This document shows, piece by piece, positions 10,871-38,510 of a DNA stretch of 64,000 nt. The notes under the pieces are model-generated. The model was not told the origin of the DNA. It was given only the letters and a program-made list of their open reading frames with translations, and searched no databases. A program made the position numbers and the translations under genes. The first letter of the stretch is position 1; each line of letters starts with the position of its first letter. The stretch lies in NCBI GenBank assembly GCA_025677815.1, contig JAIXMP010000008.1, positions 992,001 through 1,056,000 on the forward strand, written 5' to 3'. This DNA is from Phascolomyces articulosus. Taxonomy: Eukaryota; Mucoromycota; Mucoromycetes; Mucorales; Lichtheimiaceae.

Positions 10871-12247
10871 TTATTGAGCAGCAGCAGCACGTCTGCGGTC
10901 ACGCTCTTCAGCAATGGTGAGCTTGACACCCTTACCCTTAGGAAGAGAGATCCAGGGCTTGTTACCTATTTAAATAATAAAATAAATGTTAAAAAACACC
11001 ATTATCATTGTTTAAACCTAACCCTTCAAAAAAATATAAAATAACTATATTTACCTTCACCAATAACGAAAACGTTAGAGATACGGGTAGCAAAGACACG
11101 ATCCAAAGAATCCTTGATGTGAACAATTTCAAAACCACCAATGTGACGTTCACGGTGAACGATCATACCAACACGACCAATGTTACGACCACCAGTGACC
11201 ATACAGACGTTACCGGTATCGAACTTAACGAAATCGGTGATCTTACCGTTTTCCATATCGTAACGAATAGTGTCGTTAGCCTTGATCAAAGGATCGGGGT
11301 AACGGAGGGTACGGCCATCGTGGGTGACAACGTATGGGACACCACCCTTGCCAACCATGACCTTCTTGACACGGCACAACTTGTACTTGGCTTCCTCATC
11401 GGTAATGCGGTGGATGGCGAAGCGACCCTTAATGTCATAGACGAGACGGAAGTTTTCACCAGTCTTTTCAATGGAGATGACATCTGCCATGATTCACAAA
11501 GAAAAAATTTGGGAAAAAAAGCATCCGTGATTCGCCAAAGCTCTCGACCATCAATCACCATGTTCATAATATATATACGTTTTTTTTTCATAAAATCAAA
11601 TGGAAATTTTTATTCACTTACCCATGAAACCAGCAGGGAAGGTGGTATCGGTACGGACCTTATGGTCGACCTTGACCAAACGTTGCATAAGAATAGCTTG
11701 GACTTCACGGCCGTTAAGAGCGTACTTGAGGCGGTTACGCAAGAAGATGATGAGAGGCAAACACTCACGGGTCTTGTGGGGACCGGCGCTGGGCTTAGGG
11801 GCATAACCACCTATTTAATTTAAATAATGAGAATTGATTAGATCACAAAATGATTCCAAAAAATAAAATCTTTTTGTTGCGCATGATTCAGAAATCCAAA
11901 AAAATCGTCATGGTTTAATCTGACTGTTGAGCTTGACATAAATTTTTGGTAATTCATCACAACCATGTGGTCGCTGTTCTATTCGCATAGTGTTGTTTGT
12001 TGTTTACTACATACCCAAAAGCTTGTCCAACATCCAGTGCTTAGGAGCTGCCAAACGCTTCATGTGTTTCTTGGGACCACGAGCCTAATAATAATAATAA
12101 TAATATATGCATATCGTTAATATCCATTTGATGATTGTATCCATCCATCCCATATCCTAATCCATCCATTCAGTAATCGATGTAATCCATTACATCTATT
12201 ATCGTAAACAAGAGGTATGCTTATTCTTCATGATGACTACTAACCAT
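10871..12247 (-). CDS. rps4: 40S ribosomal protein eS4
   Basis: Five exons, 12247-12245 (ATG only), 12084-12015, 11810-11622, 11483-11055 and 10965-10871, give 261 residues, against 263 for human RPS4X. The spliced protein begins [20 protein letters not shown], then has the S4-like RNA-binding segment, the KOW region [16 protein letters not shown] and the C-terminal [20 protein letters not shown]. It is a structural component of the cytosolic small ribosomal subunit. Introns are long for this window (160, 204, 138 and 89 nt), and an intron directly after the ATG is common in fungal ribosomal protein genes. Intron 2 contains a box C/D snoRNA (see separate entry). Confidence 0.97.
11881..11967 (-). 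ncRNA. Box C/D snoRNA in eS4 intron 2, LSU rRNA guide
   Basis: Lies wholly inside the second intron of the eS4 gene, same strand, about 87 nt. On the minus strand the order is: stem CAUGGU, box C GUGAUGA (11960-11954), a guide, a D'-like CAGA (11922-11919), a C'-like AUGACGA (11911-11905), box D CUGA (11891-11888) and stem AUCAUG. The two arms pair over six base pairs, one of them G-U. Directly before D' is GUCAAGCUCAACAG (11937-11924). It is the exact complement of CUGUUGAGCUUGAC, which I recall from the conserved start of domain V of eukaryotic 25S/28S rRNA. Yeast snR190 is thought to target this region, so this may be its counterpart. The likely role is 2'-O-methylation guidance or pre-60S folding. 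I see no second guide before box D. Confidence 0.8.
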
Positions 12248-36467: not shown

Positions 36468-38510
36468 TTATTGTACAGATTGCCCATTAATAATAACATG
36501 GTTGGCATCCATGTATGATAGCGTCATAAACCCACCTCGTTCTGATATACATCTTGTATATTCATTCGTAGTAAATTGATGACGAGTAATGAGATCAATC
36601 TTTGTAGCATCGTTGTAAGATGTTTCTAATAACAAATTCAAAGAATTCGAATCCAAATCAAAAATGCTATTTGTGTCAATAATGAATTGAGGTTGTCTTT
36701 TCACTAGTTTTTGTTCTGCAGATCTGTTATTACGACTGGATGGGACACGTAACCAGCGATCGGGTTTTCTCAACATGTTAAATTCGTTAGCATCATCACC
36801 GCTATTCTCCCTATCACTTCTACAACGTGTATTACTATTTATGTTAGTTGGTGATGATGATGATGATGTTGATATGACCATCTTTTTTAAACCATAAATC
36901 TGGATTGGATCCCAAATTGTTGTATATGTCGATGTGGCCCAAACGATACGTTGATCATTCATCTGAATTAATCGAAAATGACGTGGTCCAAATTGTAGTT
37001 GAATACCAATCACAGAATCGCCCGAGATGCAGCGCCAATAGCACTGTTTTGCAATAAAAGTGGATAATTGAATACAATATTGGAAAATACAATTGATACT
37101 ATCCGATGTCATGGTAACTTGATCTAATTCTAATCGTTCGATGGGTGATTGTATAGGTGCCCAAAGCAATTCATCAGATAAATGAATGCATGTTAAATGT
37201 AACCTTCTCAAGGCACGACATGTCACCAAAAGAACAGGTAAATCAATCATAGTGCGCATTGTATTGTTGCTATCGATAATAGTTGTACTGAGGTTGCTAT
37301 TGCTATTACCACAAAGTGACAGGTCACACAAGTTTTCACATACGTAAAAAATGGTTAAACGACGATCATAAGCTTCAGGGATGGTGATAGAAAGTCGAAA
37401 AATATCATCATTGAGATGAGAGACAAACCCATCAAATTCGTCAAGAACTGTATGTGATTCAAAGATGGTTACTGATGACCAACGGCAACTGCCATGGACA
37501 GACAAATCGTATACTAAAGGCGCCTGCCGTTGAATACAAAGTACTGTATCATAATCGAGATCCAGTCGTATAAGATGAGCACATAATAACTGAGGGAACT
37601 CTAGAAATCGTGAGTTTGTTGAAGAAGATCCTACGCGACGAATCCATCCTGATCTTTCAGATATATTTTCTAAATGTAAATTGACAATGTTAGGATAACA
37701 TTGGGCAATGTAAGATAACCAAGCATTAGCCGTATCACTCCAACCACCATCATAGACCAGTCGCAATGATTGCATCTTGGGGACAATTGCCATGGCAACA
37801 TTGCTATTGTTATTGTAATGAATTTGACTCGGTCCTTCGGAAGCAAAATCAATCAAATTTGGACAACATGTATGAATGATATACAAATGACGAACATCAA
37901 AGGTAGGCAACACATTATTCATAACAAGTTCGGATAAATTTGACATGGGCTCCAAAAGACGTCGTAACCAATCGTCAAAATCGGTTCCCAAAGGCGTGTT
38001 AAAGATGGAGGGTGGCTCCCACGATAAACAGGATAATTCGAGTCGCGTCAAAAAATGATAAGAAGCACCAAATTCGATCAAGGCTGGAATGGGTGATTCA
38101 AAAAAATGAGGTCTGGTGGGTGCTAGTCTGTGCTTTACACTTGCTTCATCTTCTAGATTTAATAAAAATGTGCTGGGAGATGTGATGGAAAATAAAGTTG
38201 ACAAAAGGGAGGGTCGCCACCACCAAAAATGTAATGTTTTCAAGGACGGACATCGCTCTTGTAGTTTACGCATATCTTGAATACTCAACATACCGTCTTC
38301 GAGGACGAGTTCAAGCATTCGTTTACAAAGTGAAGAGTCGGCATGACGAAGCATGATGGTCGACGCGTTGGCATCACTACTGATTTCGGTCGATCGGTAT
38401 AGACATGGCAAAAAAACAAAATACCATGTACGACACACCATTATACAATGGTAAATGTCATGGCGTTGCAAATGCAACGCGATTCTCTCCAAGACCTCAA
38501 TAGGTAACAT
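36468..38510 (-). CDS. F-box protein, paralogue of the gene at 61566-63584
   Basis: Intronless, 680 residues. The N terminus is a degenerate F-box: LPIEVLERIALHLQRHDIYH followed by CIMVCRTWYFVFLPCLYRS. The rest forms irregular leucine-rich repeats (for example CPSLKTLHFWWW, MSNLSELVMNNV, CPNLIDFASEG, CRALRRLHLTCIHLSDELL) and ends with a conserved-looking GGFMTLSYMDANHVIING. Family role: recruits a substrate to an SCF (Skp1-Cul1) ubiquitin ligase. The substrate is unknown. F-box/LRR genes are strongly expanded in Mucorales. It lies on the same strand as the VTC array, 416 bp downstream of the first VTC gene. Confidence 0.85.
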   Translation of the reverse strand: MLPIEVLERIALHLQRHDIYHCIMVCRTWYFVFLPCLYRSTEISSDANASTIMLRHADSSLCKRMLELVLEDGMLSIQDMRKLQERCPSLKTLHFWWWRPSLLSTLFSITSPSTFLLNLEDEASVKHRLAPTRPHFFESPIPALIEFGASYHFLTRLELSCLSWEPPSIFNTPLGTDFDDWLRRLLEPMSNLSELVMNNVLPTFDVRHLYIIHTCCPNLIDFASEGPSQIHYNNNSNVAMAIVPKMQSLRLVYDGGWSDTANAWLSYIAQCYPNIVNLHLENISERSGWIRRVGSSSTNSRFLEFPQLLCAHLIRLDLDYDTVLCIQRQAPLVYDLSVHGSCRWSSVTIFESHTVLDEFDGFVSHLNDDIFRLSITIPEAYDRRLTIFYVCENLCDLSLCGNSNSNLSTTIIDSNNTMRTMIDLPVLLVTCRALRRLHLTCIHLSDELLWAPIQSPIERLELDQVTMTSDSINCIFQYCIQLSTFIAKQCYWRCISGDSVIGIQLQFGPRHFRLIQMNDQRIVWATSTYTTIWDPIQIYGLKKMVISTSSSSSPTNINSNTRCRSDRENSGDDANEFNMLRKPDRWLRVPSSRNNRSAEQKLVKRQPQFIIDTNSIFDLDSNSLNLLLETSYNDATKIDLITRHQFTTNEYTRCISERGGFMTLSYMDANHVIINGQSVQ

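Follow-up and report, generated by a model that had tools for sequence, protein, structure and literature searches.

The second intron of the gene for ribosomal protein eS4 in Phascolomyces articulosus raises two questions: does it encode a small nucleolar RNA (snoRNA), and which residue of the ribosomal RNA (rRNA) would this RNA address? The gene is carried on the minus strand of a 64-kb stretch of DNA (the window), for which the initial annotation proposed a box C/D snoRNA similar to yeast snR190. Positions 11882–11967 very probably encode a real intronic box C/D snoRNA, as predicted from the sequence, and its predicted target is the equivalent of yeast U2410 and not the snR190 site. That the intron encodes a box C/D snoRNA which guides 2'-O-methylation of 25S rRNA at the U2410 equivalent is given a probability of about three in four: boxes, terminal stem, ribosomal-protein intron, and an exact guide next to box D' coincide.

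Architecture of the candidate snoRNA

The consensus sequences of C/D snoRNA boxes are RUGAUGA for box C, CUGA for boxes D and D', and UGAUGA for box C'. The candidate (11882..11967, minus strand) spans 86 nt from stem to stem and runs in the sense direction relative to eS4. Orientation, boxes, and six-pair stem are as initially described, as is the overall architecture of the span; only the length had been given one nucleotide too long, as 87 nt at 11881..11967. The RNA reads CAUGGU-U-GUGAUGA ... GUCAAGCUCAACAG-U-CAGA-UUAAACCA-UGACGA ... CUGA-AUCAUG. The terminal stem is formed by six pairs between CAUGGU (11962..11967) and AUCAUG (11882..11887) and joins box C, GUGAUGA (11954..11960), an exact match to RUGAUGA, with box D, CUGA (11888..11891), which matches the consensus. 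The internal boxes D', CAGA (11919..11922), and C', UGACGA (11905..11910), each deviate from their consensus by one letter. The guide GUCAAGCUCAACAG (11924..11937) is separated by a single nucleotide from D' and is an exact complement of 25S CUGUUGAGCUUGAC over 14 nt, where the class is defined by at least 9–10 nt of rRNA complementarity directly upstream of D or D'. The spacer on the D side is 13 nt long and U-rich.

Predicted target on the 25S rRNA

The target 14-mer has three exact occurrences in the assembly (47.4 Mb, 110 contigs): the complement of the guide itself, one on contig C34, and one on contig C63. The C34 copy shows no large-subunit (LSU) rRNA context by eye, and the LSU stretch just before the target is found without mismatch only on C63. 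At this place (locus L002), the Rfam model LSU_rRNA_eukarya scores 25.4 bits (E 0.00018), under its cut-off of 50, over a short LSU fragment, and the consensus line of the model contains CUgUUGAGCUUGAC. The guide complement is exact over 14 nt against both the C63 fragment and the Rfam eukaryotic LSU consensus, which bears out the complementarity to conserved 25S given in the initial annotation. The assembly seems to lack a full 25S at the C63 site, and no full-length 25S was found by the 14-mer and LSU-stretch searches. The fragment itself (~1474–1545) is an isolated 25S-like stretch between copies of a TGCCACTTTA(T/C)GGCC(A/G)AAGTACC-like repeat, as judged by eye.

The numbering was anchored on yeast C2392, G2395, U2417, and U2421 (PMC8536666) and on Arabidopsis G2392, G2410, and U2411 (PMC8053127, Table 1). 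Arabidopsis numbering equals yeast + 1, taken from the correspondence of yeast G2791/G2793 with Arabidopsis G2792/G2794 (PMC8053127); Arabidopsis G2396 and U2422 are consistent with this shift. When 105 registers around the target were compared in the C63 fragment, exactly one satisfied all seven residue identities, and it places the duplex at the equivalents of yeast 2407–2420. The same seven identities are fitted at six places in the window, or ~9e-5 per place. A C/D guide directs methylation to the residue paired with its fifth nucleotide, counted upstream from D or D' (PMC8053127, PMC8413462). Applied to CAGA, this rule predicts methylation at the equivalent of U2410, which stands at +5 of the guide, as a guide for this residue should have it. 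The best other match of the candidate to the C63 fragment is only 9 nt long and G-U-rich.

Proposed mode of action

Once the eS4 intron has been spliced out and debranched, the candidate RNA would be free and would be bound and protected by Snu13, Nop56, Nop58, and Nop1, as in established C/D biology. The D' guide would then base-pair with pre-25S rRNA, and Nop1/fibrillarin would methylate the U at D'+5—the equivalent of yeast U2410, 26S U2372 of Neurospora crassa, and 25S U2411 of Arabidopsis. A guide role is supported by the status of this residue in other species: it is methylated in Arabidopsis, where the methylation is lowered on loss of SnoR29.2 (PMC8053127), and a guide is assigned to it in N. 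crassa, Schizosaccharomyces pombe, and Arabidopsis (PMC2780460). Fungal ribosomal-protein introns hosting C/D snoRNAs have been reported, such as RPL7 with snR59 (PMC8476143), and three C/D clusters of Rhizopus are intronic (PMC3596301).

Host gene and intron

The host gene eS4 (10871..12247, minus strand) has its coding exons at 12247–12245, 12084–12015, 11810–11622, 11483–11055, and 10965–10871. Joined in frame, the translated exon model yields a complete protein of 261 aa, which Pfam identifies as eS4 through Ribosomal_S4e (E 1.7e-35) and four other domains. Among fungi, eS4 of Lichtheimia hyalospora matches best (90% identity, 95% coverage), with Dichotomocladium, Rhizopus, and Umbelopsis next in line; by score, the first rank is taken by a longer, moth-labelled protein with 71% identity. 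The border of exon 4 and intron 4 allows equivalent placements within 6 nt, among which GTAA/ATAG was adopted.

The first exon is a single codon (ATG, 12247–12245) followed by the first intron (12244–12085); provided that this one-codon exon is right, the host intron of the snoRNA counts as the second. It is 204 nt long (11811..12014, minus strand), has GTATGT...ATAG borders with a continuous frame across them, and carries by eye a CTAAT branch-site-like motif ~25 nt 5' of its 3' end. The candidate leaves 47 nt on its 5' side and 71 nt on its 3' side. Intronic C/D RNAs of N. crassa have a 5' distance of 41–60 nt (PMC2780460), and the similar spacing supports an intronic snoRNA.

Strength of the case and alternative explanations

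The case is carried by the exact 14-nt guide that ends one nucleotide before D'. In a search of unrelated bacterial and viral contigs for box C plus the guide, none of the 248 matches listed combines D' and D with a stem of ≥4 pairs. In the genome itself, box C plus the guide occurs at two places: the eS4 intron and contig C25, where no C/D architecture is seen downstream by eye.

Several points weigh against a methylation guide for U2410. The scaffold alone—a perfect box C together with CUGA and five or more stem pairs—is weak evidence, since such matches arise without a guide both in simulations and at another locus of the window. By chance, 0.3 are expected per 64 kb on both strands (20 first-order Markov simulations, 5 of them with any match, maximum 2); the window holds three, namely the candidate and an overlapping pair that lies in a GAT repeat at 36851. 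The latter locus (36851–36963, plus strand) has box C, CTGA, and a six-pair stem beginning inside the repeat and is taken as chance. The average folding energy of the candidate is unremarkable (z −0.01), with 94 of 200 shuffles equal or better. Rfam gives no match at cut-off in the whole window, so that the RNA is indeed missed by annotation of this kind, as had been foreseen. In a relaxed scan of 281 bases (E up to 5), 11 of the 12 matches are box C/D families lying over the candidate on the same strand, and none of these families reaches its own cut-off; the best, SNORD96 (RF00055), scores 27.4 bits, below a gathering cut-off of 43. The N. crassa RNA for the same residue, CD20, uses a D guide of 13 nt, whereas the candidate uses a D' guide of 14 nt. 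The Arabidopsis guide for this residue is named snoR58 in the N. crassa table (PMC2780460) and SnoR29 in a later paper (PMC8053127). Finally, a strict pattern search of the genome identified no separate snR190 homologue.

This last result speaks for the proposal that the candidate is itself the snR190 homologue of P. articulosus, as does the nearness of the targets. Yeast snR190 is likewise a box C/D RNA, and its box A base-pairs nearby in 25S domain V, with G2395 as the predicted site (PMC8536666). However, G2395 lies outside the candidate duplex, 12 nt before its first paired residue; the D' guide addresses 2407–2420, nothing resembling a guide complements G2395, and a 9-nt, G-U-rich pairing is the best that the rest of the RNA offers to the region. 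In N. crassa, each of the two sites has an RNA of its own (PMC2780460), and SNR190 is linked to U14 in yeast, as CD16 is to CD37 in N. crassa, whereas the candidate is not beside a U14 candidate: the sole one is on contig C78, and the window is on contig C89. An snR190 identity is thus very improbable, and the label “snR190-like” finds no support. Nor would intron encoding set the candidate apart from snR190, because the N. crassa homologue, CD16, is intronic as well. The U14 (SNORD14) candidate on C78 (L266, 746974–747067) scores 49 bits where Rfam requires 64, and is followed on its 3' side by an intron-like TTTTTTTCAG end, as seen by eye.

An actual snoRNA might also bind this stretch of 25S but leave it unmethylated, acting as an RNA chaperone in the way reported for yeast snR190, which has a second antisense element (box B) to domain I (PMC8536666). 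D' and C' differ from consensus by one letter each, and diverged C'/D' boxes are blamed for the absent methylation in the case of snR190 (PMC8536666). In a single-sequence fold of the candidate, moreover, GUCA at the start of the guide is paired with the UGAC in box C'—a weak likeness to the internal stem described for snR190 (PMC8536666), because of which this role is retained as an alternative. Opening the snR190 stem was without effect, however (PMC8536666), weak conservation is common in eukaryotic C'/D' motifs (PMC8413462), and the residue is methylated in Arabidopsis (PMC8053127) and listed as guided in N. crassa (PMC2780460), so that a pure chaperone is regarded as unlikely. The imperfect D' and C' boxes would also fit a decayed or unexpressed relic, but with box C, box D, the stem, and the 14-nt guide all intact, a relic is somewhat less likely still. 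Least probable of all is that boxes and rRNA complement came together by chance in an AT-rich intron: the chance rate of the scaffold, the one false locus in the window, and the C34 copy of the 14-mer speak for it, while the joint occurrence of scaffold, guide before a D'-like box, sense direction, snoRNA-like spacing, and ribosomal-protein intron, which as a full set of pattern elements had no counterpart among the 248 unrelated matches listed, speaks against it. A methylation guide for the U2410 equivalent is therefore preferred.

A more far-reaching version of this methylation guide is doubtful: that of an early-branching fungus with a guide for a 25S methylation that has no budding-yeast or human counterpart in the N. 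crassa table, that works from D' instead of D, possibly marks the equivalents of both U2410 and U2411 (+5 and +6), much as SnoR29 of Arabidopsis marks a neighbouring pair of its own, and is housed in the gene of a small-subunit protein.

Comparison with known guides

With the candidate, a mucoralean genome gains a probable guide for a 25S site whose ribose methylation is known from Neurospora and Arabidopsis; the predicted target is now U2410 instead of the snR190 site. The candidate also exemplifies a fungal C/D RNA that is overlooked at Rfam cut-offs. Beyond annotation, its significance is little. The kind of RNA, an ordinary methylation-guide snoRNA, is already known, and the candidate is an added member for which no further novelty is claimed, because C/D snoRNAs in fungal ribosomal-protein introns, the intronic clusters of Rhizopus, and C/D snoRNAs of Lichtheimia corymbifera have been reported before. 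For the last species, eleven are given, without names in the passage concerned (PMC4133162); the candidate may already be annotated among them. One further Rfam box C/D family has CAAGCUCAACAG after box C in common with the candidate; it represents a longer RNA of 117 positions and matches at 24.7 bits, below its cut-off of 50.

In the N. crassa table, CD20 is assigned to 26S-Um2372 (S. pombe snR88) and CD16 to Gm2357 (snR190), both with intronic location (PMC2780460). CD20 resembles the candidate in being an intronic box C/D RNA with the same predicted residue—26S-Um2372 becomes yeast 2410 when the constant offset of 38 is added. The guide of the candidate is upstream of D' and not, as in CD20, upstream of D; the same target does not imply common descent of the two, with their guides at different boxes and the comparison made by table entry. 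S. pombe snR88 shares the predicted target as well and appears to be an independent gene (PMC8421224), unlike the intronic candidate.

Arabidopsis SnoR29 carries two guides. For the one directed at G2392, no equivalent is seen in the candidate against the C63 fragment. The other features the same layout as the candidate: it is a D' guide for the same place, with G2410 at +5 and U2411 at +6 (PMC8053127), and differs from that of the candidate in a register shifted by one.
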